A stretch of DNA of 64,000 nt from a virus. The notes under the pieces are model-generated. The model was not told the DNA's origin. It saw only the letters and a list, made by a program, of their open reading frames with translations, and did no database searches. The translations under genes and the position numbers were made by a program. Numbering within the stretch: position 1 is the stretch's first letter; every line of letters begins with the position of its first letter. The stretch lies in the IMG/VR virus record IMGVR_UViG_3300029893_000001, positions 248,001 to 312,000 of that record; one strand, given 5' to 3'. Shown piece after piece: positions 34,257-61,040 of the stretch.

Positions 34257-34964
34257 ATGGCATTCGATCTTACACGTTCCTATTTCAATGACATCCGTGA
34301 GCGAGCGGTTGCCCCCGGTGCCACAATCACCGAGGAAGGCCAGCTACTTATGTATGTCGACGCAGGTGACGGCACCCTTGCGGTGCAGCCTTCTGCGGGT
34401 GCTGCTACTGACCGTGTCGCTGGTTTCGCAATCACTGATGCGCTCAAGTACGTTACCCAGACTGTCGTTGAGAGTCTGACCGTTCCCGCAGGCGGCGGCA
34501 CAGTCTCTCTTCGTCAGAACAACCTGACGGCTAACGATACGCGAGCAGTCGCGTCTACTACCGGTGTTCTTACCGAGGTAGGCGGCGCCCCCGCGGCTGG
34601 TCAGTTCCAGATGAACAACGCGGACGGTACCATCACGTTCAACGCTGCTGAAGCAGGACAGACCGTGACAGTTACCTATCGCTACACCCCAACTCTTGAT
34701 GAGGCTCTTGCCACTTGGCACGAGCGTTCCATCAACAACCGCGCTCAGGACTACTTCAGCACCGTTGGCGTTGGTTGCATGGAGGGTGAGATCTTTACCA
34801 CGATGTACGACACAACGCAGGCCTACGCAGTAGGCAATGTCGTGAACTCTGGTGCAGGCGGCCAAGTGACGACGGCTGCTGGTGGCGTGGCCATCGGCAT
34901 CGTTTCCCAGGTCCCGTCTGTGGCAGATGGTCGTCTTGGAGTGAAGTTCTCCGGTCTCTCCTGA
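34257..34964 (+). CDS. Putative capsid decoration protein
   Basis: 235 residues, Gly/Ala/Thr-rich and beta-structured. The first 60 and last 60 residues (MYVDAGDGTLAVQPSAG, AYAVGNVVNSGAGGQVTTAA, GIVSQVPS) resemble head decoration proteins of the lambda gpD style. Residues about 70-145 (ESLTVPAGGGTVSLRQNN, DGTITFNAAEAGQTVTVTY) form an inserted sandwich that reappears in the 2813-residue protein. It would stabilise the capsid surface. Located between scaffold and capsid genes and closed by a terminator. Confidence 0.65.
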   Translation: MAFDLTRSYFNDIRERAVAPGATITEEGQLLMYVDAGDGTLAVQPSAGAATDRVAGFAITDALKYVTQTVVESLTVPAGGGTVSLRQNNLTANDTRAVASTTGVLTEVGGAPAAGQFQMNNADGTITFNAAEAGQTVTVTYRYTPTLDEALATWHERSINNRAQDYFSTVGVGCMEGEIFTTMYDTTQAYAVGNVVNSGAGGQVTTAAGGVAIGIVSQVPSVADGRLGVKFSGLS

Positions 34965-44425: not shown

Positions 44426-45424
44426 GTGCCGGCTTCCGTAGATGTCAGAGGAATCGCAGTCAAGTTGCTGAAGGCTCACCACCTTCGGTACATTGACATG
44501 CGCTCTATCCCAGATCCGCTGACTGGAACGCACGTTATTGTACTCAAGTTTCGTCGGGATAAGGAGCAATCCCCTAAGGCCTTCTTCGACGACCTAAACG
44601 AAAATGGAATCCAGTACAAGAAGCTAGTCAAGGATCCAAACGCTACGCAAATCATATGCGAGCTTTGGCCTAAGGGCCAAAAGAAACGCGTTTCGGAACT
44701 ACGAGAGAAAGTCAGGGACCAGCAAAGGTCTAAGGAAAACGGGGGTACTTCAGGAATTAGCAACGGGAACATGCCTTATGTAGGAATACCCGCTGGAGGG
44801 ACCCAAGCTATTATGATTCAAAGCATCGCAAAAGAGCTTGCTGAAGCCGGGCACGGGGAAGAAGCTAAGGAGCTACTTAGAATTGCTGGAGAGCAAGACT
44901 GGGAAGAGTTTCGCCGTCGGATGCGGAAAGTGTTCTCCAGAATGAAGCTCTATATGAGACCTGAAGTACGACAGCTTCGAGAGCAGATCTCATCTGAAAT
45001 CATCAAAGAAATGGGTCCAGATGTTGAGCTGCTTCGCGGGACGCGAGGTTCGGAACTAGAGAAACACATCAACGACTGTCTTCACGAGCATATTGATCTT
45101 GTGTTAGACACCAGGGGCATTGCTGACTCAATTCTTCGTCGGACGGCCGAACATCTGTCACCTGAGCAAAAAGTGGCCCACCTGCAAAGGATTCGGCGAG
45201 GGTTCACTGTTCTTGCGAACAGAGCGAGCAATACCGGGGATCTAGACGTCGCTGATGTCGCTACGAAGTATGCTGATCTATTGGCTCGCGATATTCAGAC
45301 CTTGGTTGATGGCGGGTCGAGTGTAGCCGTAAAATTAGATGACCCTGTTGTCGCTCTTGTCTCGTCGCGTTCTCTGGACGCGGCCTACTTACATCTCGTA
45401 GAATCTACTTACAATGCCCGGTAA
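44426..45424 (+). CDS. Hypothetical virion-operon protein
   Basis: 332 residues from a GTG. An N-terminal alpha/beta domain (LKAHHLRYIDMRSIPDPLTG, THVIVLKFRRD) is followed by long helices (VRQLREQISSEIIKEMGPDV, DVADVATKYADLLARDIQTL). It overlaps the next gene by 11 bases. No family recognised. Confidence 0.6.
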   Translation: MPASVDVRGIAVKLLKAHHLRYIDMRSIPDPLTGTHVIVLKFRRDKEQSPKAFFDDLNENGIQYKKLVKDPNATQIICELWPKGQKKRVSELREKVRDQQRSKENGGTSGISNGNMPYVGIPAGGTQAIMIQSIAKELAEAGHGEEAKELLRIAGEQDWEEFRRRMRKVFSRMKLYMRPEVRQLREQISSEIIKEMGPDVELLRGTRGSELEKHINDCLHEHIDLVLDTRGIADSILRRTAEHLSPEQKVAHLQRIRRGFTVLANRASNTGDLDVADVATKYADLLARDIQTLVDGGSSVAVKLDDPVVALVSSRSLDAAYLHLVESTYNAR

Positions 45425-48209
45425 CGACAATCGTAAGGACATCGCCCAAGCTTTCTTGGAGGTGTCGGAGGCGGAGTGGGAAAACTTGATGAAGCGCGGA
45501 ATCGCGCAACATTTAGTGAACCTAGTTCCCTTGGCTGTAGCTTTCCAAGATGACCTTGAGGATGCTAAGAAATTCTTCATAGAGGTCAAGGAGCTGTCGC
45601 TTCCTCCCAAAATTGACGGACAGTTGGACCTGCTGGATAAGGTTCGCAGCGGAATCGTTACAACAGTTCAAGACCCAAATCTTGAACCGTTTGAGATTAA
45701 TGAGATTCTTGATGAAACACTGGACGACCTGAAGAAGGCCTACACAAAGTACTCGAAAGTAGAAGCGGACACGGTTCAGACCATACGAACGAATTCCAAG
45801 CGTCTGCCGAAAGAGGCCTTTATTGAGAAGGTACGAAGCTACTGGAACTACATCGATGATTTTTGGCCATCCGAGCGAGAAGCAATTTTGGGCCGCTGGA
45901 ATCAATATTTCGATGAGACTCAGAGCACACTCCAATCAGCATCCGACCAGCTAAAGGTGGGCACTGCCGCAACGCCTCATGGCGTTTTGGTACGTGTTTC
46001 TGACCTACTCAAGAAGAGGTCTGCTCACTTCACAGCGCAAAAAGTGGCGGATGCTCTAGATCGAATCAAGCAGTACTATGTGGAAGAACTAGGCCTCATC
46101 CCTGCCTACATGGGTGCTCAGGGGAACTGGAAGGTAGAAAAGGACGATTGTCCGGAGAAACGACTTCCAGAAGTGCACACAAAATTGTCCGATAGATTTG
46201 CGTTCTGTCGATTCGAACAGAAAAAGTGCCCGTCATTCCAGTGGAGCCAGGGAAGTTACGTGAAGTGCAAAAGCTTCGTTCGACTTAAAGAAGCAAGCCT
46301 CATCGAGGGAATTCGCGTCCTATCAGACAAAGAGTACCTAAACCAACTTGAAAACATCGCGGAGACAGACCCATTCGTCAAGATGTTGTTTGTCGAGGCA
46401 AAACGTCGGTCAGGAGAGCTTTTCTTCGGGAAGGTTATTGATGATCGGCTAGAAAAAATGCTAGAACAGTACCCCACCTCGAATAGGAGGGGAGAGTTCA
46501 AATACCGCGTGTACATGGTAGCTAACGAACCTGTTCTAGTGAGCGGAAAGTATGCTGTCGCAGCAGACAAAATTCTTCTTGAAACGATCGGTGAAGGTGA
46601 GAGAATGCCAAAGCAAGCCTCAACCCTAAGAATCGCTGGACCGGTCATGCGGGTTACCTTCACTTCGAATGCCTTGCGTGACCCAGAATTCAGGGATTTC
46701 TTACGCAAGAAAAATGCGCGTAAGTCGAAGCACTGCACGTATGATGTCCCTTTTGAGCGGGAGGAGGACATTAGCTTTTTCCTATCCGAGGTGAGGGACG
46801 AATTCGACTACAAGATTGAAATCTTCCAGATCATGGAAGACGCTGATGAGGGGGTTGAAAAGGACTTTGGGGTCTATCGCTTCTCGGACCTTCCCTTATC
46901 CCGCTACTCGTCGTTTAGGCTTGCCCTTACTCATCTACCTGCAGTCAAGAATCCACCGACACATATTTCAGGCAATGCTCTGTCGATGGAGGGGGCAGAA
47001 AAGCTGGTGGATGTCGCCAACAACCTCCCGAAGAACCACCCCCTTAGAACTAGGGTGGCAGGGTTAGCGGATCGTCTCAGGGTAGGGGCCCATCTTCTGA
47101 TCGCTGTAGACGAGGATATCATTCGATATGCTGACGGGGCGATCGGATTGGTCCCTGAACTCGGCGCCAGGTGGATGGAGAGGGACCCAGACACCGGCAC
47201 TTCAGCGCTGGTCGAGATGGTCGAGGTGGTGCGCCCGAAGCAAGGCGCTCCGACATATAAGGTACGACGCCTCGACACCGGCAAGGAGATCGAACTAAGG
47301 CACCCACGCATCCAGCCTGTTACGAAGGATGCTTGCCCTCCCCCTCCTGGTGGCGCTAACCTACCTCCGGAGAGTCCGTTCGGGCATATTATCGGTGAGG
47401 ATGACGTCTACTACATCGTCCAGATCCCAAAGGCACCCGGCCAGGGTCCCGGCGGACCTCCTGCCGGCTTTGAGCCTCCGCCATTCGGACGCTTTCCGGG
47501 AGATGTGGCGCCACCAGCATTGCCTCCCCCCGGAGGCGCTCTCCCTTTTCCGTTCCCGGGCGGCAATAACCATCCAACCCTCCCGGCTCCTGTCAGCGGC
47601 CCGCCGCCCGCCGTTGACCAAGGTCCGGTTGTAGAACAAGAGAAAGTTTTTGTTGTGGAGGACCAGCCCCAACCAGAGCAGGTCGATTTCGCAGAGCAAG
47701 AAATCATTGAGGATATTCACAAGAAAACGAAGCAGCCAGGGTTCAAATTCCTAAACGCCCCACACAAAAATCCGATTGCACCATCGGGTGCGGCGGAGGA
47801 AGAAATCACAGAGGCAGTTGAAAAGCTGCGCTCTATGTTCCGCGGCGACCCCAGGGTTAAGACTGTACGTCGAGATCTCTCCCCACAGGGAAAGCCCATC
47901 CTTTACGTACACTCAACGATGCCGAAAGCGATGCGAGATGAGGTCCCTGACTCGTTGAATGGGTTTGAGGTTGTCCTTGCCCCTCTTCACGACTCTCTAT
48001 TGAAAGAAACCGACAATAATGGTATCTCTGCTGAACCCTCTGACACAACAGCAGACAGCCTCGTGAACCCTATGCCCAATCGGCCAGAAAACGGAAAGTC
48101 GAAGGGTCGAGATTTTCCTCCGGGCCCTTATTTGGACCAAGTCAGCGGGCCGCCGTCGATGAACGACTCGCTGGTTACCCAAATTCGCGACATTCCTAAA
48201 GGTCGTTAG
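45414..48209 (+). CDS. Large hypothetical virion protein, Pro/Gly-rich linker
   Basis: 931 residues. A helical N-terminal half contains a Cys group (DDCPEKR, FCRFEQKKCPSF, KCKSF; about 243-285) that may bind metal. The middle is alpha/beta, then a Pro/Gly-rich linker (about 643-735, PPGGALPFPFPGGN) and a C-terminal part (GFKFLNAPHKNPIAPSGAA). The APSGA motif recurs at the C-terminus of the 2813-residue protein. It is probably a virion or internal head protein. No family recognised. Confidence 0.65.
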   Translation: MPGNDNRKDIAQAFLEVSEAEWENLMKRGIAQHLVNLVPLAVAFQDDLEDAKKFFIEVKELSLPPKIDGQLDLLDKVRSGIVTTVQDPNLEPFEINEILDETLDDLKKAYTKYSKVEADTVQTIRTNSKRLPKEAFIEKVRSYWNYIDDFWPSEREAILGRWNQYFDETQSTLQSASDQLKVGTAATPHGVLVRVSDLLKKRSAHFTAQKVADALDRIKQYYVEELGLIPAYMGAQGNWKVEKDDCPEKRLPEVHTKLSDRFAFCRFEQKKCPSFQWSQGSYVKCKSFVRLKEASLIEGIRVLSDKEYLNQLENIAETDPFVKMLFVEAKRRSGELFFGKVIDDRLEKMLEQYPTSNRRGEFKYRVYMVANEPVLVSGKYAVAADKILLETIGEGERMPKQASTLRIAGPVMRVTFTSNALRDPEFRDFLRKKNARKSKHCTYDVPFEREEDISFFLSEVRDEFDYKIEIFQIMEDADEGVEKDFGVYRFSDLPLSRYSSFRLALTHLPAVKNPPTHISGNALSMEGAEKLVDVANNLPKNHPLRTRVAGLADRLRVGAHLLIAVDEDIIRYADGAIGLVPELGARWMERDPDTGTSALVEMVEVVRPKQGAPTYKVRRLDTGKEIELRHPRIQPVTKDACPPPPGGANLPPESPFGHIIGEDDVYYIVQIPKAPGQGPGGPPAGFEPPPFGRFPGDVAPPALPPPGGALPFPFPGGNNHPTLPAPVSGPPPAVDQGPVVEQEKVFVVEDQPQPEQVDFAEQEIIEDIHKKTKQPGFKFLNAPHKNPIAPSGAAEEEITEAVEKLRSMFRGDPRVKTVRRDLSPQGKPILYVHSTMPKAMRDEVPDSLNGFEVVLAPLHDSLLKETDNNGISAEPSDTTADSLVNPMPNRPENGKSKGRDFPPGPYLDQVSGPPSMNDSLVTQIRDIPKGR

Positions 48210-48210
48210 T

Positions 48211-48846
48211 ATGAGTGAGGTACTTCGTAAGCTTCGGTTTGTGCACGTAAACGCTCCGCTGCTGTTGCAACCTCGAATCGCTCGTGTTATCGAAGCTATT
48301 TCGAACTCTCCTCCTGAGGGCATCGAAGCTCCGATTCTCCAAAAGGTAAAACCGAAGGACACCCCTCTTTTGGTCCTGCAAGATAATGCAGACTCCTTTC
48401 TTGCGTTGATGCGAACCCTGCCTAAGAAGCACCCCTTCAAGGAAGTCGTCAGCGAAATGAACTCTCTGGCGGAGAAGTTAGCCGAGAAGTTAGAAGAGTC
48501 CGGCCAAGAACTATCAAAGATCCTCCAGACGGATGAAGACGACCTTCCTGGAATTAAGGGTTCAGCACTCGGAAGTCTAGCAGACTTGCTTCAGAGTGAA
48601 AAATCAAAGCTCGCTGAGCTTCAGGAGCTTACGACAACACTCACTACCCTTGCTGGCAAAGCCCACAAAGAAGAGAAGACCAAGCCAGTTGAACATGAGC
48701 TACCGTCTAAAGACGTCGGCTCGAAAAAGAAAAAGAAGGAAGCACCAGGCATTGGGGACGAAGTAGAAAACGCATCTTCTCCCGCGGACCCCCAGGGTCC
48801 GCAGACCCCAACGGGTGGCTCAACTCCAGACCTCTCGCTCATGTGA
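48211..48846 (+). CDS. Hypothetical helical protein
   Basis: 211 residues, helical with a charged Lys/Glu-rich C-terminal third (KAHKEEKTKPVEHELPSKDV, KKKKKEAP) and a Pro/Thr-rich end. Follows the 931-residue gene by one base. It may be an assembly partner of one of the large proteins around it. No family recognised. Confidence 0.6.
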   Translation: MSEVLRKLRFVHVNAPLLLQPRIARVIEAISNSPPEGIEAPILQKVKPKDTPLLVLQDNADSFLALMRTLPKKHPFKEVVSEMNSLAEKLAEKLEESGQELSKILQTDEDDLPGIKGSALGSLADLLQSEKSKLAELQELTTTLTTLAGKAHKEEKTKPVEHELPSKDVGSKKKKKEAPGIGDEVENASSPADPQGPQTPTGGSTPDLSLM

Positions 48847-48868: not shown

Positions 48869-51800
48869 ATGGCCCTAAATACTGCCAAAAGAATCATGCG
48901 TAAGGCTTCTCCTGAGGATGAGTCTTCTCTGTCATTAGAGGGGCCGAACGCACTTGGGGTTGACGAACCCCAGCAGGAGCTTGAGAAGGTCGTAATTCCG
49001 GATGGTGGAGAAGTACATCTTCAGAACACCAATATTCTTCCGGACTCCGTCGCTGTGACGGACCTGAGGACCGACAAGGAGTTTGTCGCGTCCGAAAATC
49101 AAACCCTAGAACAAGGTCAGTACTTTCTCCTCCCAGAGGACGGAACGCTGTTCTTCCATCCATCTGATGCTGGAGCACGTGTTCAGATTAACTACTTGTG
49201 GAAGGAAGGCATTGAGAGCGACGATGACGAGGATGAAGATGACCTCGACGATGATGCGGACGAAGACGATGGGGATAACGAGACTTCTGGCAAGAAGCCC
49301 AGAGTAACAACCACTCCGGCAGATAGTTTGTGGCATTTGGACGAGGGGTGGTTTAAGTGGACACCTGAGTCCAAGAAGGTCACCGTAAACGATTCTCTGC
49401 AGGCAAAACTCGGAACAGATGTAGATTTCAGAAAAGGAATCACTGTCAGGAATGAACAGACCGGCAAAGAACTGCACGTTGTGTTGCAGGGAGCCCCTAC
49501 TCAAGTCACGCGAACTATCTCGGGCAAGAAACTAGAGATTAATCTTCGGAGGCCTGTCGACTCGACGTCTGTGTACGTGGAAAGCGCGGAAACAGGAGAT
49601 AGGTTTACCCCAGTAGAAAGCCCTGCCAATCTTCAACCCAATACATACTACGTCGAAAGCGACGTAGGGGTACTGCGATTTCACGAGGCAAATGGAGGAA
49701 CGAAGGTTCGGATTGAGTTCCGTCGACCTGTAGGTCCTGGAGAGGTCTCGTACAACTATGTGAACGGCGTTCTAACCTGGGGCGATCCCTCAGCTTCTGG
49801 GACCACTTACGTGGTGGAATACCATGTTAAGGGGCAGAAGGGCAAGCCACTCACCCTAGAAGGAGAAGAGGGTGAGGAGAAGGAGTACCAGCTTGTAGAG
49901 TCGTTCAAGTCTCGTGCAGAGAATTTGTGGATGCACCTTCTGGACAACCCAGACCCTGCATTTGTTCGGGATACCCTGCTTCCCATCATCGAGGATGAGA
50001 TTGAAAGTACCCGAGATAAAATTCTCGGCAGCAAAAAGAGCGAACCCCAAAAAGAGGAAGAACTTAGGAGCGTACCCGACCTTACGCGAGAGTTCATGGA
50101 GTTCGAGCAGCTCCTTGCCAAGCGGGAAGAGAACGACGACCAGGACACACGTGAACTTGCACGCGATTACGTTCAAACAGAAATAGCCCCTAAACTTGCG
50201 CGTTTCTACAGCCTTGCGAGCCTGCTCGCAGAGCGCATTTATGACATGCAGTCCGAGTCCGCAAAGGATGAGGACTTCCCAGAGTTTGGGGGCGCCGGTT
50301 CAAGATCTTTGGACTTGAACACCCTAAAGTATTTGAAGCGTGTCCGCCAAGAAGCAAACCGGCTCGATGAAGACCTAGTTGATTTCTCAAAGTACTACAC
50401 AGGTCTCCTCATTTCTTGGATCCTTGATGCTGATACATACTACCCTTCAAAGAAGGCGAGGGAGAAGAAAAAGGGAAGGGCTTCAAAGAAGGCGAGGGAG
50501 AAGAAAAAGGGAAGGGCTTCAAAGAAGGCGAGGGAGAAGAAAAAGGGAAGGGATCCGAGGTGGGAAGGGATCAAAACGGTTTTTGAGCGAGCAGGGATTG
50601 GATTAGCTGATCTGCAAGTTGTGGCACTGGAGGCTTTTCGGCGGGCGATTCTCGAATTCGATCGCGAGAGACGTAATAAGGAAACCACCCCAGATCCGAA
50701 GAAGTTCAGAATCTACGGAAACCCGGTCATCAAGCGCCGAGTAACGAACGCCTTGAAGAAGGTGTTCGACAAATACCAACAGGAACAGACAGTCGAAACG
50801 ACTAGGTCAGGGTCCACTACAGTCACAATTCCAGAGGACGGAGGCGAAGTAGACCTGAAGGTCCCCGGCATTCGCTTAGAAGACCTTGAAGTTACAGGGC
50901 CTGACGGCAAAGTCTTCACTTCAGCAAGCGGTAAGCTGTTTGCCACCGAGGCGGAGAAGAGGAAGAGCCCTCGTGTCAAGATCCTACTCGGCAAGGAGAT
51001 GGACAAAGACGCCCAAGTCTCTGTCACCGACCCAAAGACCGGCAAAAAGCTTGCAATCATTCGTAGTAAGGACCATCCCTGGAACAAGGAGCTGAAGAAG
51101 AAGGTTGCAGAGGATCCAGATGTCTTCTACTTCGCACACTCCAGTGGAACTCTTTGGCTGAGTGAGGCGTACAGGGGTAAGTCTCTCCTAGTCGAGGCCC
51201 CTGGTATTGGAGGAGATTCCACGGGAATTGGAAAGGACCAGTATCGCGCCCATCCAACCAAAGGCACCATCGAGTTCTCGCCACTCAATGGCGGCGAAGA
51301 AGTCAAGGTATCCTACTCTCAGACAATCAGGGCTAAGAGACAAGTGAGCCCAGTCGTCAGGACTGATGAAGAGGGGGAATCGCTGTCTTTGGTTGAAATG
51401 CAGGAAGATGAAGGTGCGGATCCCCTGACAAAGGCTGAAGAAGCAATCTCTCAGGAAAACGTAGAAAAGCTACTTGATCTCATCGGTGAGATTCTCCTCG
51501 TAGAAGAAGACCCCAGGTTAACCGACGAAGATCGTGCCATTCTCCAGGGTCTTCTTGGAGTCGGGGAGCCGGGGGGACAACGCCTTACGATTCAAGAGAT
51601 TGCAGCCAGAGAGCCATTCAACGTTGACCCATCTGATTCGAACAAGATGAATCAGATCAAGACGAAGAGGCAAAAAGCAGCAGATACTCTCCTGGAAATC
51701 CTTCGAGAAAAAGCAGAGGAAGACCGTTCTCTTCGTAAGATGATTCGTCCCTTTGAAGCCATCCTCGTAGGGAAGGATGGTGCAAAGGGAATTGAACACG

Positions 51801-54800
51801 ACAAGTTCTTGGGGTACCTGAAGCAAGCCCCTGAGGATAAGACTCGTTCGTTCCAACAGGTTTTGGTGGGCTTGCTTGGAAAGTCAGGACTCAAGCAAGA
51901 CGAGGAGAACATCCTCCGTTGGATGTGGGCGCTTCCGGGTCGACTTCGTCGCGATCAGGACGCCGAAGATAAGCAGTATGAAGTCCTTCCAGATGGTCTA
52001 CGCCCTGCGGACTCGCCAGGGGCGCGTCTGCAAGAGATTGCAATCGATGAGTTCAACATCGAGGCCGACGATCAGGGAAACATTTCTCAGGCCGCAACTG
52101 GTGTCGTCAACAAGGTCTACGAGAGAGCCCTAGACAAGTTCGCAGGAAAATTCAATACGGTCTATGAGGCGAGGAAAGACTTCTTCAAAGAGAAGTTCCC
52201 GGAATTCGTTCAGTACTACGACAAGCAACTTGGAAAACAAACGCTTCGCGATGAACTGTCTACGATCGAGCGGGATGAGTACCAAGCACCCCCTGCGGCA
52301 GTAAAGCGACCGGAAGAGAAGCGCACACCGCTTTTTGACCAGATTAAGACGAGCCTCTCCGGGGTGGATGAAGCGATGCTTCGTTCTCTGATGGAGGAGC
52401 TTGTTAAGACGCACAAGAAGGGCGGAGACATCCATGCACTGATTCAGCAGCGAGAAAAGGATATCGACACCTTGACGCAAAAAGGTGCGAAGCTCCTCGA
52501 CTCTCGCACCAAGGATCTGCGTGCGGAGGTTGAAGAGCTGAAAAAGGCCTGGAGCCAGAGCCGGGCTGAACACGAACGCCTTAGTGAAGAACTCAGTGAT
52601 GCGCTTCGGACACGAGAGAAACTGCGGGAGACTGTTGTTGCCGACAATGAGGAGTTAGCGAAAAAGAAGACTCACTTTCAGGTACTTCGAAAGATCATCG
52701 GGCTCCTCAAGTCGTGGGAGACAAGCACTCTATTCCAGCTTCTGTCGCCCAAGAACATCGAGGCAACAGAAGACCCAGTGGAGCAGGACGCCCTCAAAGA
52801 GTACTCCTATCTACGAAACGCCAGCAACGAGGATCTAGAAGAGGCCAGGGAAGACCTAGCAAATGAACTGACGGAGCGAAGTGAAGAGCTGAAGGAACTT
52901 CGAAGGCAGGCTGTCGAACTTGCTGACGAAGAAGTTCGTACCCAGCTCCGTCAGTTGAAAGAGAAGATCGAAGACCTTCGCTCCAGAAAAGAAAAGTTCT
53001 TGGAGTTGACTGCCAAACAGCAAGCAGCACTGGACTCGAAGAAGGATGAGTTAGAGAAGAAACTACGTCCGCTTCAGAACAAGCTTGAGGAGCACCTCAG
53101 GAGTCATAATTCTGCGCAAGAACTACAGGTACTCCAAAAGGTCTACAAATTCCTCTCAGATCGCGAAGAGCTGAGGCGTAGTGATGGTCGTTTCAATCTC
53201 GACAACATGTTCGAGGTTCCAAAGCTAGAGAAGGGTAAGGGCTATCAGCCGCCTAAGCTCCAGCCTGGCGAAGAGGATACGTACCAGCCCCTGCCAAGGA
53301 AGCTTCCCCAGCCTGCCATCTCAACACCAAAGAAGACGGCGCCTGTTGAAGAAGACGCAGGCACCCCTGCCTCAAAACCTGCTTCGAAAACGCTGAAAAC
53401 GATTGCAGAGCAATACACGAAGGACGAAATCTCTGCTGAGATCTTCATTCGCAGATGCAAAAAGTACTTCAAGGGACGCCTACCCGAAGAAGCAGAATCT
53501 GCCATCCAGAGGTATGACGAGGGGCTGATTTCGCTTGACGAGGCGGCTAATATCGTTGCTACTGAGGCCCTTGACGCCATAGAGGACGTGGAACCGGCGT
53601 CGACCGACGAGGCGAAGAAAAAGCCCACGGAAGAAGATAGCGACAGGTTCACATCACCTGCAAAGAAAGCACCGACGGAGGTTCAAAGAACCTTGTTCGA
53701 AGAACTGCGTTCGGTTGCACTTCCTATTGACCCTGAGGAGTCCAAAAAGGACTATCAGAAGAGGCTGGACAACTTTAAGGGTCTCATGCTGGCTCTTCGG
53801 AAGCACTTCGCTGAAGGTCAGTCGATCAAAACTTTCAAGCCCAAGTTCTCAGCCGCTAAGACGCTCCCTGACCAGAACAGAGTCCTTCGCGCAGTCGTAG
53901 AGTACCTTCGAGATTTTGCTTCAGATTTGAAGCAGGCTCCTGGAGTTTGGGATCTTTCTGGGCTATTCAAGCCCACAATCACAAAGCCTGTTGAATCGTT
54001 GCAGCCAAAGGTTGACCTGTCCGATGACGATTCAGCAGTTGAAAGTCTCCTGAACTCTCAGCCGTCGCTAAGCAACAAGACGCAAGCGAAGGCGCTCCAC
54101 TCGATGATTCAGATCATCAACAACGGAGATCCGGTCACAAAGATCATCAAGAGCCTGAGGAAGACGGGCAACCCCAAGGTTCAGGGTGCGCTAAATCTCG
54201 CCTTGCGCCTGTCTTACTTCATGACGTTACACGAAGACCTGCAGAAAGAAGACGGCACTTGGGATTTCAAACCGCTGTACACAGGTCAATACAAGTTCCC
54301 TTCATTCGAAGAGTATGATAGGTCTCGCCCACTAGAGGAACACTTGAGCCCGCTGATTGACGGAATTCAGCGACAGCTTCAAGAGGAGGCAGGACCTGAC
54401 GGCGGCATTGAGTCCCGCACCGGAACACAACAGCGTGTTCTTGATTTGCTCCACCAAATGTCCGAGTTGGCGCTCCACGGCATGGACCTGGACCAAATGC
54501 AGGAGCACTTCGAAAAGGAAGACAAGAGAGAAGCGAAGCCCTACAGCCTTGCTTACCTCTTCCAAGTGACGCGCCATTTCCTAGAAAAGTTGAACAGGAC
54601 CAAGGGCCTAGCCAACATGCAGAACGACATGGGCTTGGCAGACGTATTTGGTCCGGGCGCTCCTCCGAGCACCCCAACCGAACAAGATGAAGTCGACCCC
54701 GTCCCAGAACAAGAACAGAAGGAGCTTCTTCCGCAGGATGACCGGACCACTGCTTTCCGACAGATGGTTCATGTCATGGATATGGACGAAGCGGAAGCAC

Positions 54801-57310
54801 GCGTTGCCCAGCAACTCGTGTCCGCACTTCAGCTTCGCATGGAGAGCGGCACTAAGGTCGCATCTGAACTTCTGGAGGCCTTGTTACGGAAGAACCCAAA
54901 GTTCTTACCCATCGTCAAAAAGGTGCTGACTTTTATCGGGCGCAATCGAGAAAAATTCGAGTCAGGCGTGCCCGGCGTTCCAGACCTGAGCATCCTGACT
55001 GGAATGCCGTTCAAGCATCCTGCTGTGGAGAAGACTCCAGAAAAGGCAGTGAAGCCAGAGGTCCAACAGCTCCTTCAAGAGAAGTCGACACCCGCCCCGG
55101 AGTCCCAGCGCAAAAAGCTACGTAAGTCTATTTTCGACGAATTTGTGGCAGAATACGAGCTAGACGATCAACAGAAGAATCTGTTTGCGGATGCGATCCG
55201 TGCGTTGAAAGCTCACGAGGGCAAGGCCGGCATCGAAAAGCTGGTTGGGAAGACTGAGGGCACCCAGTTAGAGGGCGTGTTTGAGCTTCTTGTCGACTTC
55301 TTCAAGGAAAAGGGATTGGTTGGCTCCGACGGAGTTCCAGATTTCCGTGGAATCTCTGTTCCGCCCCTCAGTGGTAGAGAGTCTTTCTTTGCAGAGGATG
55401 GAACCCCGAATCTGGGTCGAGTTGAGGAACAGGCGCCGGAATTCGACGCCGACGAGATTTCTGACGAAATGCCAGAGCCAAAGGCCGACCTGGAAGAACA
55501 CACAGAAGACCTTGTTGATGAACTAGGCGGAGAGGGCGCTCGTTTCGCGCCAGACCTACAGGAGGCCGTCGACTTCCTGAAGTCCGACCAAGTTGTCACT
55601 GAAGAGGACAGCACTCCTCGCAGCAAATCCAAAGACCGGCTCAAGAGGAACATCTGGAACCTGATGGTCCAGGAGTTCGATTTCGATGAAGAGGAGCAGC
55701 AGAACGCTGCTGAAATTCTCGAAGCGGTTCAGAAGAATGGATTGGACAAGGTGAAGGCCCAACTTTCTGGGCAGGGCCACCTCGAAGTCCTTCTAGATGA
55801 CCTGATTGACTACATCAAGGAACAGGGGCTGCAAGAGAGCGACATCCCTGACATCGAGTTGCCTGCTGCGCCTGACGCTGAGGATACAGATGACGTTGGA
55901 ATGACGATAGAGGAGCTGATGGGTGAAAAGCCTGTCGAAAAAGCTCCCGCTCGACTCGCTCCGACAATCCGACGCGAAGTGGATGAAGAGACACTTCAGA
56001 AAGTGCTTGAAGAGGCACAAAAAGTACAGGGGAAGGACGAACGTCTATTCGACTCGTCTGAAGTTGTTCGCGGCCTAGAAGGAAAGATTGCACCAGAAGA
56101 CGCGAAGAACGCTCTACTGCAAGCAGCGGAACAAGGCCTCGTCGATCTACGGGCGGAAAGCGGAGCTGTTTCACTTTCTCCAGAAGACGCGAAATTTGTT
56201 CCTGTGTCGCCTGATGGCGTACCATTCTCGTCAGGGCGAGTTCTCCGCATGCCCGAGCCTGCGGCGGCCCCCCAGCCCGCAGAACCAGCCCCGGCTCCAG
56301 GAAAGGCACCTTCTACACGAGGGAGGCTTCCTGCTGCCCTCGTGGACCGGGAGACAAGTTCCGCCGTCTACACCTTCGTCGTGAAACATTCTGGTCTTAC
56401 CCCAGATGAAATAAACGCACTAAATGAGGCCATGCCGGGCCTCGAAAACATGACCTACCGACAGGTGGCAGAGGCGTTTCGAAAGAACCACGAGCAGCTT
56501 GGCGACGCCGCTAAGAATGCTGCGCTGAAGTACATCAAAAACCTCACTGCTTACCTTCGTCTTGTTCAACAGGGGAAGGATCCTGTGGGTGGACCTCCCG
56601 CCTCCTCTGCTAAGCGTCCAAAGGGGCAGTGGAGGGACGACCCCGCAACCGAGAAGCAAATTGCGAAACTACAGGAGTTGGCGCACGAGCTTCAATCAAT
56701 GGGACACAGCCTTCCGCCTGTCAGTCTAAGCCCCACAACAAAGGGAGAGGCCTCGGACGGTCTCAACGCTCTGCGGGCGGCCCTAGATGAGGCTAAGAAG
56801 TCGATAGAGACAAAGCAGGCGCCACCCGCTCAAACGAAAGAACAGGTTCGGGCTGACCGTCTACACGAACTTCTGTCCAAAGACCGTACGCATGCGAGAC
56901 GCGTACAGCGACTTCGTGCTCTTATCGATCTAGGTTCCTTCACAGCGGAGGAAATCAGCCAGGCCGTCTCTCGACTAGAAGTGGCTGATAAGGAGAAGGC
57001 AGACCTTTTGGGTCTCCTTCCTGGAGCAGCGCCTGCGCGCGCAGAGCAGCCTAAGGCACCGCAGAAATCTACCGCACCATCGGGTGCAACGCCTGATCGG
57101 AATGAGCGAAAGAGGCTTCAATTGCTCCTCGAAAAGGCGTTGGAATGGTCGACCGCACACGAGGTCACCTCCGCACACGCCTTCAGGCTCTTCCTAAAAA
57201 AGAAGCGACCTGAACTGCTTCCGATGTACGATAGAATCATGCCTGATGTCCAGAAAGCCCTGGACGCGATCTATGGTAACGAGCTAGACTTCGATCTAAG
57301 TGGCATTTGA
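48869..57310 (+). CDS. Giant 2813-residue modular late protein
   Basis: The longest gene in the window. Residues about 45-325 and 650-840 hold beta-sandwich domains of the type in the decoration protein (VVIPDGGEVHLQNTN, DGTLFFHPSDAGARVQINY). A Lys-rich tandem repeat lies near 527-561 and long coiled coils near 1200-1430. From about 1390 to the end come at least eight divergent helical modules of 80-120 residues, each closing with a short (V/I/W)(P/W)D(L/F/I) motif: RFNLDNMF, VWDLSGLF, TWDFKPLY, VPDLSIL, VPDFRGI, IPDIELP, FDLSGI. No enzyme motif, signal peptide or membrane segment is visible. Candidates are a tape measure, an internal head protein or an ejected polypeptide. The modular layout is seen; the role is unknown. 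Confidence 0.7.
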   Translation: MALNTAKRIMRKASPEDESSLSLEGPNALGVDEPQQELEKVVIPDGGEVHLQNTNILPDSVAVTDLRTDKEFVASENQTLEQGQYFLLPEDGTLFFHPSDAGARVQINYLWKEGIESDDDEDEDDLDDDADEDDGDNETSGKKPRVTTTPADSLWHLDEGWFKWTPESKKVTVNDSLQAKLGTDVDFRKGITVRNEQTGKELHVVLQGAPTQVTRTISGKKLEINLRRPVDSTSVYVESAETGDRFTPVESPANLQPNTYYVESDVGVLRFHEANGGTKVRIEFRRPVGPGEVSYNYVNGVLTWGDPSASGTTYVVEYHVKGQKGKPLTLEGEEGEEKEYQLVESFKSRAENLWMHLLDNPDPAFVRDTLLPIIEDEIESTRDKILGSKKSEPQKEEELRSVPDLTREFMEFEQLLAKREENDDQDTRELARDYVQTEIAPKLARFYSLASLLAERIYDMQSESAKDEDFPEFGGAGSRSLDLNTLKYLKRVRQEANRLDEDLVDFSKYYTGLLISWILDADTYYPSKKAREKKKGRASKKAREKKKGRASKKAREKKKGRDPRWEGIKTVFERAGIGLADLQVVALEAFRRAILEFDRERRNKETTPDPKKFRIYGNPVIKRRVTNALKKVFDKYQQEQTVETTRSGSTTVTIPEDGGEVDLKVPGIRLEDLEVTGPDGKVFTSASGKLFATEAEKRKSPRVKILLGKEMDKDAQVSVTDPKTGKKLAIIRSKDHPWNKELKKKVAEDPDVFYFAHSSGTLWLSEAYRGKSLLVEAPGIGGDSTGIGKDQYRAHPTKGTIEFSPLNGGEEVKVSYSQTIRAKRQVSPVVRTDEEGESLSLVEMQEDEGADPLTKAEEAISQENVEKLLDLIGEILLVEEDPRLTDEDRAILQGLLGVGEPGGQRLTIQEIAAREPFNVDPSDSNKMNQIKTKRQKAADTLLEILREKAEEDRSLRKMIRPFEAILVGKDGAKGIEHDKFLGYLKQAPEDKTRSFQQVLVGLLGKSGLKQDEENILRWMWALPGRLRRDQDAEDKQYEVLPDGLRPADSPGARLQEIAIDEFNIEADDQGNISQAATGVVNKVYERALDKFAGKFNTVYEARKDFFKEKFPEFVQYYDKQLGKQTLRDELSTIERDEYQAPPAAVKRPEEKRTPLFDQIKTSLSGVDEAMLRSLMEELVKTHKKGGDIHALIQQREKDIDTLTQKGAKLLDSRTKDLRAEVEELKKAWSQSRAEHERLSEELSDALRTREKLRETVVADNEELAKKKTHFQVLRKIIGLLKSWETSTLFQLLSPKNIEATEDPVEQDALKEYSYLRNASNEDLEEAREDLANELTERSEELKELRRQAVELADEEVRTQLRQLKEKIEDLRSRKEKFLELTAKQQAALDSKKDELEKKLRPLQNKLEEHLRSHNSAQELQVLQKVYKFLSDREELRRSDGRFNLDNMFEVPKLEKGKGYQPPKLQPGEEDTYQPLPRKLPQPAISTPKKTAPVEEDAGTPASKPASKTLKTIAEQYTKDEISAEIFIRRCKKYFKGRLPEEAESAIQRYDEGLISLDEAANIVATEALDAIEDVEPASTDEAKKKPTEEDSDRFTSPAKKAPTEVQRTLFEELRSVALPIDPEESKKDYQKRLDNFKGLMLALRKHFAEGQSIKTFKPKFSAAKTLPDQNRVLRAVVEYLRDFASDLKQAPGVWDLSGLFKPTITKPVESLQPKVDLSDDDSAVESLLNSQPSLSNKTQAKALHSMIQIINNGDPVTKIIKSLRKTGNPKVQGALNLALRLSYFMTLHEDLQKEDGTWDFKPLYTGQYKFPSFEEYDRSRPLEEHLSPLIDGIQRQLQEEAGPDGGIESRTGTQQRVLDLLHQMSELALHGMDLDQMQEHFEKEDKREAKPYSLAYLFQVTRHFLEKLNRTKGLANMQNDMGLADVFGPGAPPSTPTEQDEVDPVPEQEQKELLPQDDRTTAFRQMVHVMDMDEAEARVAQQLVSALQLRMESGTKVASELLEALLRKNPKFLPIVKKVLTFIGRNREKFESGVPGVPDLSILTGMPFKHPAVEKTPEKAVKPEVQQLLQEKSTPAPESQRKKLRKSIFDEFVAEYELDDQQKNLFADAIRALKAHEGKAGIEKLVGKTEGTQLEGVFELLVDFFKEKGLVGSDGVPDFRGISVPPLSGRESFFAEDGTPNLGRVEEQAPEFDADEISDEMPEPKADLEEHTEDLVDELGGEGARFAPDLQEAVDFLKSDQVVTEEDSTPRSKSKDRLKRNIWNLMVQEFDFDEEEQQNAAEILEAVQKNGLDKVKAQLSGQGHLEVLLDDLIDYIKEQGLQESDIPDIELPAAPDAEDTDDVGMTIEELMGEKPVEKAPARLAPTIRREVDEETLQKVLEEAQKVQGKDERLFDSSEVVRGLEGKIAPEDAKNALLQAAEQGLVDLRAESGAVSLSPEDAKFVPVSPDGVPFSSGRVLRMPEPAAAPQPAEPAPAPGKAPSTRGRLPAALVDRETSSAVYTFVVKHSGLTPDEINALNEAMPGLENMTYRQVAEAFRKNHEQLGDAAKNAALKYIKNLTAYLRLVQQGKDPVGGPPASSAKRPKGQWRDDPATEKQIAKLQELAHELQSMGHSLPPVSLSPTTKGEASDGLNALRAALDEAKKSIETKQAPPAQTKEQVRADRLHELLSKDRTHARRVQRLRALIDLGSFTAEEISQAVSRLEVADKEKADLLGLLPGAAPARAEQPKAPQKSTAPSGATPDRNERKRLQLLLEKALEWSTAHEVTSAHAFRLFLKKKRPELLPMYDRIMPDVQKALDAIYGNELDFDLSGI
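50446..50552 (+). repeat. 36-base tandem repeat, three copies
   Basis: Three nearly complete identical 36-base units start at 50446, 50482 and 50518, in frame, each encoding KKAREKKKGR plus AS. They form a Lys/Arg-rich linker inside the giant protein. The exact identity of copies implies recent expansion or slippage. Confidence 0.95.
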
Positions 57311-57860
57311 GAAAGAAGACCCACGGATTTTCTTTTATGAGGCCATTTGTGAGGCCTTGGGACGCCTTCGTCTCCAGTTAGAAAGCTGGACCGAATTCTA
57401 CCTCGTAGACCTACTCGTGCGACAAGTCTCTCGTCCCGTAACACAAGAGCCGTTTGTTTTTCAGCTCGAAGCAGCACACCGAGCTAGCTCCGCCAAAGAG
57501 CGCTTCCTACGGTTCAAGGAGATGGGAGATTCTGCGCTGATTCTCGTCGGCTTTTTCGAGGAAGCCATTGGACGTAGAGGCGTGACTCGCAGGTACGTAA
57601 TAAACATGGGAGGCGGCGCATATCGAAACGCCGCCTCCCTATCAGTGGATGGCCTTAGCCAGGTGTACGTCACTCTATCAGATGGCTTTGGTGACTTCGT
57701 CCGTGTACTGGACGAAGTTCGAGAAATGACATCACTCCGTACCAAACAAGATGTCGCCGCACTGTTCGAAAAGTGGCAGCGAACCGGGTCGATAACCGCT
57801 GCAGACCGGCTTCAACACCAAGGGGTGTTTCCTGTCGTAGGAAAGCCAGGCTCCAACTAA
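57300..57860 (+). CDS. Hypothetical protein, possible Myxococcota-type family
   Basis: 186 residues from a GTG overlapping the giant gene by 11 bases. The order MGDSALILVGFFEEAIGRRG, NMGGGAYRNAASL, FGDFVRVLDEVREM, ALFEKWQRTGS and LQHQGVFPV recalls a conserved uncharacterised family I associate with Myxococcota chromosomes; I cannot check this here. Last gene of the rightward late operon; its stop overlaps the stop of the facing gene, with no terminator between. Confidence 0.65.
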   Translation: MAFEKEDPRIFFYEAICEALGRLRLQLESWTEFYLVDLLVRQVSRPVTQEPFVFQLEAAHRASSAKERFLRFKEMGDSALILVGFFEEAIGRRGVTRRYVINMGGGAYRNAASLSVDGLSQVYVTLSDGFGDFVRVLDEVREMTSLRTKQDVAALFEKWQRTGSITAADRLQHQGVFPVVGKPGSN

Positions 57861-58531: not shown

Positions 58532-58545
58532 GTTCTTCCTTTCGA

Positions 58546-58632
58546 CGGAGGGTGAGGGATTCGAACCCCCGGAGCCCGTGAAGGCTCAGCGGTTTTCAAG
58601 ACCGCCACCATAAACCACTCGGTCAACCCTCC
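58546..58632 (-). tRNA. tRNA-Ser (anticodon TGA)
   Basis: The cloverleaf is complete. Acceptor GGAGGGT pairs with ACCCTCC, discriminator G. The anticodon stem is GCGGT/ACCGC around loop CTTGAAA with anticodon TGA. A long variable arm (GAGCC...GGCTC) and TTCGAATC T-loop confirm serine. CCA is not encoded. It reads TCA and related serine codons. Confidence 0.95.
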
Positions 58633-58678
58633 ATAGAGGGTCTGGGTTACCAGAAGATAACCAGGCCCTCGTTCTTTG

Positions 58679-59395
58679 CTAGTCTTCCACGATAGGAATG
58701 TCGATGACGATTGGAGATCTCTTTGGTCTATACCCAGAGGTCATCGTACATGCGTTTACAACGGTACCCCATGGAGCTGCGAATACGCCATAGTCTTCGT
58801 GAATGTGGCCGCATACAGTCAACTGCGGACGAACCACTTTTAGCCTATTGGCAAGGTCAACGCAACCAACATGTTTACCCCTCGTTCGGTCGCCATGACC
58901 GTACGGAGGACCATGAACAACAAGAATGTCCGTGTCTTCCGGAATTGAAGCCCAGCGAGCCGCAGCAGCGGCACCCCGCTGGTGATTGAACGCCCACGAC
59001 TCTGGGTAAAACTCAGTGCTCCACGGAGAACCGTAGATCTTGAGCCCTAGTACTTCCGTAGCCTCATCTTGAAGATACGTCCATTGCTGAATGTGCGCCC
59101 GAGCCAACTCAGGCTCTCGTTCAAAACTGATGTCATGGTTACCAGCAATGCAAATCTTTCTCTCTTTCGGAAGAGAAATCTTAGCTCCCCAGTCATCGAA
59201 CTTTAGGAGCTTGTCGGTCTCACCGCGGTAGGTAATGTCACCAGCATGGATAAGGATGTGACACGGAGGAATTCCTCCGGGGATGTTCTGTGCCTCGGTG
59301 TGCGTGTCAGAGATGCAGCACACCCTAACAACTCGGACGTTGGGCGGATTTATCGGGTCAAAACGGGCTAAGTCCGAAAAGAACGGGTCTACCAT
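58679..59395 (-). CDS. Metallophosphoesterase, MPPED-like
   Basis: 238 residues with all calcineurin-type metal motifs: D30-x-H32 (ISDTH), GD at 52-53 (LIHAGDITYRG), GNH at 85-87 (IAGNHDISF), H161 (VVHGPPYGHGD) and GHIH at 196-199. The segments IYGSPWSTEF, SWAFNHQRG, VGCVDLANRL and HEDYGV match the MPPED1/MPPED2 group, which hydrolyses cyclic nucleotides and aryl phosphodiesters. It is likely a cytosolic phosphodiesterase. A role against cyclic-nucleotide defence signalling is possible but not shown. GAGGT precedes the ATG. Confidence 0.88.
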   Translation of the reverse strand: MVDPFFSDLARFDPINPPNVRVVRVCCISDTHTEAQNIPGGIPPCHILIHAGDITYRGETDKLLKFDDWGAKISLPKERKICIAGNHDISFEREPELARAHIQQWTYLQDEATEVLGLKIYGSPWSTEFYPESWAFNHQRGAAAAARWASIPEDTDILVVHGPPYGHGDRTRGKHVGCVDLANRLKVVRPQLTVCGHIHEDYGVFAAPWGTVVNACTMTSGYRPKRSPIVIDIPIVED

Positions 59396-59406
59396 GTTAC
59401 CTCAGG

Positions 59407-59706
59407 TTAGCGCTTCTGCTTTCGAACCCAGGCAGCAAGCTCTTTTTCACCAACTTGCTCTAGGGCCTCAGCAGCAGCCTCGACGCCTTCATTATACCCA
59501 TCCAAAACAGGCGCCTGTTCAGCAGGCACCTGAAGCTTAATAGGCTTCATCGGAGGTATAGGAGGGATTGGTTTAGAGGGGCGGACGTCATCCTTACCGA
59601 GAGTATGAAGCCTTTCTTTGTATTCTCGGACCTGTCTTTCGTAATTGCTGACCTCTACCTGATAGCGCCGTAACGCTTCTTGGTAGTGAATATCGTCCAC
59701 CTTCAT
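59407..59706 (-). CDS. Small hypothetical coiled-coil protein
   Basis: 99 residues. A charged coiled-coil start (YQEALRRYQVEVSNYERQVR), a Pro-rich linker (RPSKPIPPIPPMKPIKL) and a short acidic helical end. GAGG lies eight bases before the ATG. It overlaps the previous gene by four bases. No family recognised. Confidence 0.6.
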   Translation of the reverse strand: MKVDDIHYQEALRRYQVEVSNYERQVREYKERLHTLGKDDVRPSKPIPPIPPMKPIKLQVPAEQAPVLDGYNEGVEAAAEALEQVGEKELAAWVRKQKR

Positions 59707-59888
59707 TCTCGATCCTCAGGCTCTGTTTCACCGTGTTCGTATGCCCAGTAGTAGTCCTCAGCATCCTCGGATCGCAGCTCTTGTAGAGTACGAAGGCGTC
59801 CATTACGACGACCGTCAGAATCTAACAGACAACACATACCACAGTGACCCTTGAAGGGCTTCGGCTTCCGATTCTTGTAGTTTGCCAT
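59703..59888 (-). CDS. Small KPKPFKG protein
   Basis: 61 residues from the ATG at 59888 (GGAGG upstream). RKPKPFKGHCGMCCLLD is a short conserved signature with CxxCC that I have seen in small proteins of phages and bacteria; it likely binds a metal. C-terminus acidic. Function unknown. Confidence 0.65.
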   Translation of the reverse strand: MANYKNRKPKPFKGHCGMCCLLDSDGRRNGRLRTLQELRSEDAEDYYWAYEHGETEPEDRE

Positions 59889-59954
59889 GTTCTCCTCCTC
59901 GTGCGGGCGCAACCCGCGCGCACGTGATAGGAGAAAGGCGATTGCAAAGAAACC

Positions 59955-60611
59955 TCATAGCTTTTCCCTGCGAACTAAAAAACGACTTCGACGAGACGAA
60001 TAAGCAGCAAGCGCAGTACTAAATCGCGGCTCTGCCAAACCGGTTCCATACGCCCACCTAAACTGCTGCCACGTTCTGGTTCCGTAAGAACCAACTTCTA
60101 ACCCAGCGCAGTAGAGGTCAACGCCCTCTGGCGTCTCCTGTGTCGTTACGTACGCTCCTTCTGACATCATGAACTGCTGGGCATCGTGCAGGAGAAGCGT
60201 CGACATCTCTGCGTATTCACTACGCGCCCATGAACCGCCACCGACTGCCTCAGCCGCGAACAACTCTACTTTCATGAAAGTAAGTTGCGTCTCACCTCGA
60301 CGCAAGTTGGACTCTCCGCGAAAGCAAGGAGAGACAGAGAAGTAGAGACTGCCGTTTTCAAACCGTCGATACGGTTCCTGGAGACGGGCTAAGAACCCCT
60401 GTTCAGCGGAACCGATGAGGACTGCCTCTCCAACATCAGTTGCGATAGGTCTAGCACCCAACGGCATAGTTGCTTCCACTACGGGGCGCGGGACTACCCA
60501 TGGGACTTCCATGTACTTATAGCCTTTTTTGGAGTAGAAGGCGTAGGCCCTTGAAATTCTCTCCCAATCAAGGGGAGACACTTCCGAGAAGTCTTTAGCG
60601 TCTAGATCCAT
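59955..60611 (-). CDS. Class II aminoacyl-tRNA-synthetase-like protein
   Basis: 218 residues that resemble only the catalytic core of class II synthetases. YKYMEVPWVVPRPVVEATMP fits motif 1. GSLYFSVSPCFRGE fits motif 2 with the fRxE ATP-binding Arg, followed by a KVELF strand. GTGLAEPRFSTALA fits motif 3 with its invariant Arg. No anticodon-binding domain is present, and the length is about half that of the smallest complete enzyme. Free-standing cores of this type act as HisZ, AsnA or tRNA-modifying enzymes. It lies near two tRNA-Gln genes, but glutaminyl enzymes are class I, so it does not simply charge those. GAGG precedes the ATG. Confidence 0.75.
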   Translation of the reverse strand: MDLDAKDFSEVSPLDWERISRAYAFYSKKGYKYMEVPWVVPRPVVEATMPLGARPIATDVGEAVLIGSAEQGFLARLQEPYRRFENGSLYFSVSPCFRGESNLRRGETQLTFMKVELFAAEAVGGGSWARSEYAEMSTLLLHDAQQFMMSEGAYVTTQETPEGVDLYCAGLEVGSYGTRTWQQFRWAYGTGLAEPRFSTALAAYSSRRSRFLVRREKL

Positions 60612-60840
60612 CGCGAAAAGCCTCTGCAGTGCGATCGGCCATCTTTTGGAGGTCTTCCATCGTTAGCTTGTACTTGCTTTTGGCGTAAGCCCGAATAGCT
60701 CCATACAGGTCTGCAAGCTCACACATAGCCATTATGGCCACACCTTGGTGTTCAGCGTCCTCCAGCTCCTCAAGCTCCTCTCGGATCTTTGAGATCTCGC
60801 CGAACACACCCTTTTTGATCCTGCGCTTGTGATAGCCCAT
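60595..60840 (-). CDS. MazG-like all-alpha NTP pyrophosphohydrolase-like protein
   Basis: 81 residues. GVFGEISKIREELEELEDAE followed by MCELADLYGAI gives the E..E and E..D metal-binding pattern of all-alpha NTP pyrophosphohydrolases (MazG/dCTPase type). Similar KKGVFGE-start proteins are common in phages. It would hydrolyse house-cleaning or regulatory nucleotides, alone or as a dimer. It overlaps the synthetase-like gene by 17 bases and follows a terminator, so the pair forms one small operon. Confidence 0.7.
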   Translation of the reverse strand: MGYHKRRIKKGVFGEISKIREELEELEDAEHQGVAIMAMCELADLYGAIRAYAKSKYKLTMEDLQKMADRTAEAFRDGSRR

Positions 60841-60865
60841 CTTAAATCCTAAGCCTTCAAAGCAA

Positions 60866-60893
60866 GAAAAGCGTGAGCTATCTCACGCTTTTC
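60866..60893. terminator. Bidirectional terminator after the tRNA-Gln genes
   Basis: GAAAAGCGTGAG, loop CTAT, CTCACGCTTTTC. Perfect 12-base stem with A- and T-tracts on both sides. Read leftward it closes the tRNA transcript and separates it from the MazG-like gene. Confidence 0.85.
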
Positions 60894-60895
60894 TA

Positions 60896-60966
60896 TTCGG
60901 GGAGAAGGATTCGAACCTCCATCAGCGGAACCAGAATCCGCTGTCCTGCCATTAGACGATCCCCGA
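60896..60966 (-). tRNA. tRNA-Gln (anticodon CTG)
   Basis: 71 bases. Acceptor TCGGGGA/TCCCCGA with discriminator A; anticodon stem GCGGA/TCCGC around loop TTCTGGT with anticodon CTG, reading CAG. T-loop TTCGAATC. CCA not encoded. It differs from its neighbour mainly in acceptor, anticodon and T-stem. Confidence 0.95.
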
Positions 60967-60969
60967 GTA

Positions 60970-61040
60970 TTGGGGGTGAAGGATTCGAACCCTCACAGGC
61001 GGAACCAAAATCCGCCGTCCTGCCATTAGACGAACCCCCA
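60970..61040 (-). tRNA. tRNA-Gln (anticodon TTG)
   Basis: 71 bases. Acceptor TGGGGGT/ACCCCCA, discriminator A; anticodon loop TTTTGGT with anticodon TTG, reading CAA (and CAG by wobble). Three bases from the CTG tRNA and clearly a duplicated pair. It begins one base after the 61042-61581 gene, so it may be processed from the mRNA. Confidence 0.95.

Follow-up and report, generated by a model that had tools for sequence, protein, structure and literature searches.

We analysed a stretch of 64,000 nucleotides of viral DNA (hereafter the window), corresponding to G000:248001-312000 of a parent virus record of 392,328 bases, and found that the giant protein encoded at 48869..57310 (+) belongs to a real, conserved family of head-module proteins that is unannotated in the libraries we searched. 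We infer that the giant is probably a virion protein. Our preferred reading, to which we assign a probability of roughly 0.4, is that the giant is made late as a head protein of the virion in a jumbo myophage lineage; it would lie in the capsid interior, would possibly be ejected and would carry a degenerate sigma-like core. Should the sigma part of this reading fall, the conserved and still unannotated family of giant head-module proteins would stand.

The gene is a single open frame of 2813 amino acids with 0 internal stops, as the first-pass annotation had it, and is the penultimate gene in the head operon of the 392-kb record. Located 5' of it on the same strand are genes for a terminase (phrog_17415), a portal (phrog_16240), a head maturation protease (phrog_18299), a decoration-type virion protein (phrog_16710) and the major head protein (phrog_2522). 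The giant gene is directly preceded by ORFs of 931 amino acids (45414..48209, +) and 211 amino acids (48211..48846, +), both found alongside it in relatives, with a gap of 22 bases between the 211-amino-acid ORF and the giant's start. On the other side, the start of a 186-amino-acid ORF (57300..57860, +) overlaps the 3' end of the giant gene. A promoter and terminator scan of the giant region gave results near the shuffle background and was uninformative. The 931-amino-acid neighbour is approximately 46-64% conserved and has a conserved cysteine cluster with a metal-binding look, and no family was assigned to it. The head operon also includes a 477-amino-acid ORF (38055-39488) that matches the 2H phosphoesterases (LigT / 2-5 RNA ligase; Pfam E 4.6e-8) and, below threshold, anti-CBASS Acb1. 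Three tRNA genes (Ser-TGA, Gln-CTG and Gln-TTG) lie beyond the head operon at 58544-61040 on the minus strand.

To find relatives, we searched with the terminase, which yielded two IMG/VR contigs, and then with the 931- and 211-amino-acid neighbours, which yielded more. This resulted in five full-length relatives of 2437-3276 amino acids, all in IMG/VR contigs, with 43, 51, 28, 33 and 24% identity to the giant in the window. Each of the six full-length giants, including that of the window, has the same neighbouring genes on either side; one more giant, the seventh (G001), is truncated and frame-shifted within its contig. The giant evolves fast, as its identity among relatives is 24-51% versus 85-90% for the major head protein. 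Direct searches found no relatives of the giant by tblastn in INPHARED, by single-sequence scan of viral contigs or in the bacterial genome contigs scanned. A profile search of five bacterial genomes, run without a positive control, was likewise empty, and the giant was absent from the stretches read of PaBG, NCTB, Erwinia Y3 and Vibrio GR7B, phages that share the terminase or portal. The initial statement that the protein has no recognised family holds, with sequence searches against Pfam, PHROG, NCBIfam and PDB all returning no match. In two relatives, G002 and G003, we observed beside the head genes (in G002 close to the major head protein) an ORF of approximately 525-549 amino acids (L053, L057, L058) that begins HTH-like and resembles an endonuclease in its C-terminal half, possibly a mobile endonuclease.

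The decoration-type sandwiches that the first-pass annotation had proposed were recovered by two kinds of search. First, the N-terminal beta-sandwich (residues 35-112; 48971..49204, +) matches the 235-amino-acid decoration-type virion protein encoded at 34257..34964 (+; phrog_16710 E 1.7e-22) with a BLASTP E value of 6e-7 in a single comparison. Second, when 3305 ORFs were searched with a profile of residues 330-1110, the relatives' decoration-type proteins came up at E 3.7e-6 and 1.6e-5. Profile self-comparison marks a further beta-sandwich-type region at residues 160-318 (49346..49822, +), and an inserted sandwich at residues 643-820 (50795..51328, +) was found by self-comparison, model and profile search. 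By sequence comparison, we consider the giant's sandwiches homologous to the one that interrupts the 235-amino-acid protein of this same phage.

We performed a profile-profile self-comparison across 51 windows of the giant, in which 23 pairs scored at least 28, whereas no pair of reversed windows exceeded 22.8. The self-similarity is thus significant, and the proposal of a modular, partly repetitive architecture is supported. The strongest matches are among the sandwiches (58.8); those among helical modules are weaker and above the null, for example residues 2091-2165 with 2265-2332 (37.2) and residues 1679-1700 with 1783-1804 (33.5). We also built AlphaFold models from six-sequence inputs for residues 300-1180 (mean pLDDT 69, pTM 0.36) and 1595-2452 (mean pLDDT 74, pTM 0.31), in which the low pTM means that single domains are to be trusted and their arrangement is not. 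The second model predicts six four-helix modules in residues 1595-2340 and one winged helix at approximately 2368-2450. Five of these modules are marked by both self-comparison and model: residues 1605-1702 (53681..53974, +), 1720-1812 (54026..54304, +), 1961-2046 (54749..55006, +), 2078-2166 (55100..55366, +) and 2252-2332 (55622..55864, +). The third module in order, residues 1850-1928 (54416..54652, +), comes from the model. The winged-helix-like domain (residues 2368-2442; 55970..56194, +) resembles a Z-alpha domain weakly (Z 5.2), and a C-terminal helical segment ending in FDLSGI was delimited by alignment (residues 2745-2813; 57101..57307, +). No paralogues of the helical modules were found elsewhere in the phage.

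The first-pass annotation had counted at least eight modules closed by a common motif and suggested that these repeated units bind something periodic. The model shows six such modules, and the motif is rarer than claimed: its strict form occurs five times against 0.24 expected (at most three in 2000 shuffles), with one of the five, at residue 402, outside the helical modules, and a looser form, defined after the sequence had been read, occurs seven times. In both sequence and model, the "xPDL" ending looks like the segment that closes a four-helix module. Periodic binding is unsupported, as the units are very divergent, the linkers are unequal, and unit number and spacing vary between relatives. 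The Lys-rich tandem repeat was confirmed as an exact, coding 3 x 36-bp repeat (SKKAREKKKGRA; 50445..50552, +) by repeat search and alignment; because it is missing from the relatives and occurs in this phage only, we take it for a recent local slip. The coiled coil suggested earlier is apparent on reading the sequence of residues 1165-1430 (52361..53158, +).

The best conserved part of the giant is a helical core, residues 335-1096, split by the inserted sandwich. This core, which we propose is sigma-70-like, is the most interesting part of the protein and was missing from the first-pass annotation. Structural comparison of the core model placed sigma-70 chains in rows 1-45, with Z from 11.4 down to approximately 7.5-8, though these rows represent one redundant family rather than independent matches. 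The best match was 5yix_A (Z 11.4, rmsd 4.3, 222 aligned residues), a Z that, by the comparison tool's own note, chance alone can give with helical models; the next family had a Z of 7.5, and the module half of the giant (residues 1595-2452) reached only 5.2. The alignments span residues 335-633, with some extending to approximately 956, where the rmsd is near 19. Foldseek gave no match for the core at E <= 0.001; its top PDB rows, Tc toxin chains, had a TM of about 0.07 and an rmsd of about 55 and were discarded as meaningless.

Prompted by these structural matches, we compared sigma region 2 and region 4 profiles with the giant. Across the full length of the giant, the region-4 profile fitted best at residues 1006-1053, scoring 24.0 against a shuffle maximum of 19.6; 0/60 and 0/150 shuffles did as well. 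The region-2 profile was placed at residues 567-631, within the structural match at 335-633, with 2/60 and 5/150 shuffles as good, or 6/60 for a variant with phage sigmas as reference. When 40 windows drawn from profiles of RpoD and DnaG were compared with the giant, the top four were sigma-4 windows, and the region-2 window scored at the background level of other real profiles. On this basis, we delimit a helical region with a sigma-70-like predicted fold corresponding to regions 1.2 to 2 (residues 335-636; 49871..50776, +) and two sigma-4-like stretches. The first is helix-turn-helix-like (residues 852-960; 51422..51748, +), is included in some structural alignments and has a weak self-match to the second (residues 1006-1096; 51884..52156, +), which holds the region-4 profile hit and, in the alignment, the best conserved motif, ENILRxxW. 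The two approaches disagree on region 4, which the structural alignment places at approximately 852-956 and the sequence profile at 1006-1053.

The giant thus resembles bacterial and phage sigma-70 factors in its predicted fold, with region 2 followed by region 4, and in a weak region-4 profile match. It differs from them in falling below all family thresholds, in not keeping, by eye, the residues responsible for melting and reading the -10 element, and in having a core that is interrupted by a beta-sandwich and embedded in a giant protein. There is no curated-threshold sequence match to sigma-70 regions 2 and 4: scans of the six giants found no sigma family and no Pfam or PDB-sequence support, PF04545 had no match above cut-off, the sole PF04542 match was to a separate sigma gene, and nothing came from comparing the giant with a small sigma alignment of four sequences. 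Because HMMER detects no sigma, whether run with individual giants or with the profile of the family, we leave the likeness as suggestive, at about even odds. E. coli FliA, the best match for the region-2 segment in a HMMER rank test, had a misplaced alignment and was rejected as chance. The separate, true sigma-70 gene lies just left of the window (G000:247425-247622, minus; PF04542 E 3.4e-9) and has homologues in three relatives. No RNA polymerase beta subunit was found in the phage record, which may be incomplete; with a sigma-70 of its own and no beta subunit found, the phage should depend on the RNA polymerase of its host.

Under our preferred reading, the giant would most likely sit in the capsid interior and might be ejected along with the DNA. 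Its beta-sandwiches would tie it to the capsid or portal, its coiled coil and strings of four-helix modules would serve as spacers or protein-binding arms, and its degenerate sigma-70-like core (residues 335-1096) could, once inside the cell, attach to the RNA polymerase of the host. This capsid-interior, possibly ejected and polymerase-touching reading is drawn by analogy with the transcription giants that crAss-like phages store in the capsid. Specifically, the capsid of phi-crAss001 stores an RNA-polymerase-associated cargo, gp45-gp50 of 154-277 kDa, whose ejection is presumed (PMC10172136). Our giant is similarly very large and largely helical; unlike that cargo, it has no RNA polymerase domain or sequence relationship that we could find, its packaging is a prediction, and its phage belongs to a different lineage with myovirus-like tail genes. 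Head ejection proteins, some cleaved by the prohead protease, are also known from phiKZ-like phages such as SPN3US (PMC7411985); these too belong to jumbo phages, though the giant's head location is predicted from its gene context and no sequence match to them was found.

Where a jumbo phage lacks an RNA polymerase of its own, phage-encoded sigma factors are thought to steer the host enzyme (PMC7824862, PMC7598289). A more specific form of the preferred reading, which we consider unlikely on present evidence, is that the packaged giant, with its degenerate sigma-70 core split by a decoration-type sandwich, is ejected and lets a phage without an RNA polymerase of its own seize the host enzyme at once. 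If true, the virion RNA polymerases of other phages would have a packaged counterpart in the form of a sigma-like module within a head protein.

Alternatively, the giant may be a purely structural head protein, such as a capsid-interior scaffold, core, size-determining or minor capsid protein, in which sandwiches bind the shell, helical modules bridge distance and the likeness to sigma is a coincidence among helical bundles. We regard this as a credible account, though a tentative one. It would suit the position in the head operon, the sandwich held in common with the decoration-type protein, the pI of about 5.1, the strong charge, the coiled coil and long linkers, and the variation in size across relatives. 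Scaffold genes usually lie between the protease and the major head protein, and here two smaller genes (32079, 33215) already occupy that place; moreover, the sigma region-4 signal exceeds 150 shuffles. Composition fits a virion protein in general without proving it: the giant has one cysteine against 26 expected from 78 other long ORFs, and the six giants together have four against approximately 155, while the major head protein and a tape-measure candidate have none and the portal has one. No conserved protease cleavage motif was seen in the giants' N-termini.

It is also possible, though we think it improbable, that the giant is an ejected multidomain "polyvalent" effector whose host-directed activities lie beyond current profiles and are not specifically transcriptional. 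Polyvalent proteins (Iyer et al. 2017, PMC5512222) likewise exceed 2000 amino acids and carry many domains, and the giant is, as they are, a large multidomain protein encoded with late genes alongside the portal and terminase packaging genes; that it evolves faster than the major head protein would also agree. The known effector domains were not recognised in it, with 0 of that catalogue found.

Finally, although the giant is mostly helical and the longest protein seen, it is almost certainly not the tail tape measure protein, as it is encoded in the head operon rather than among tail tube, chaperone and baseplate genes, the tail-type genes lie approximately 60-135 kb away on the other strand, and its sandwich domains and proline-rich linkers are unsuited to the role. 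A clear match to a known tape measure, which would have spoken against the initial description, was not found. The PF04984 (sheath) and PF04965 (gp25) models had 0 matches in any record, and we called a sheath-like protein with the N-terminus KPGVYI (G000:168538-172008, minus) and a helical, cysteine-free tape-measure candidate of 826 amino acids (G000:159831-162311, minus) by reading and position, without family-model confirmation. A second, weak tape-measure candidate has 612 amino acids (phrog_305, E 0.0011), and G000:233494-237936 (minus) encodes a hub that carries an M23 peptidase domain (Pfam E 2e-12).
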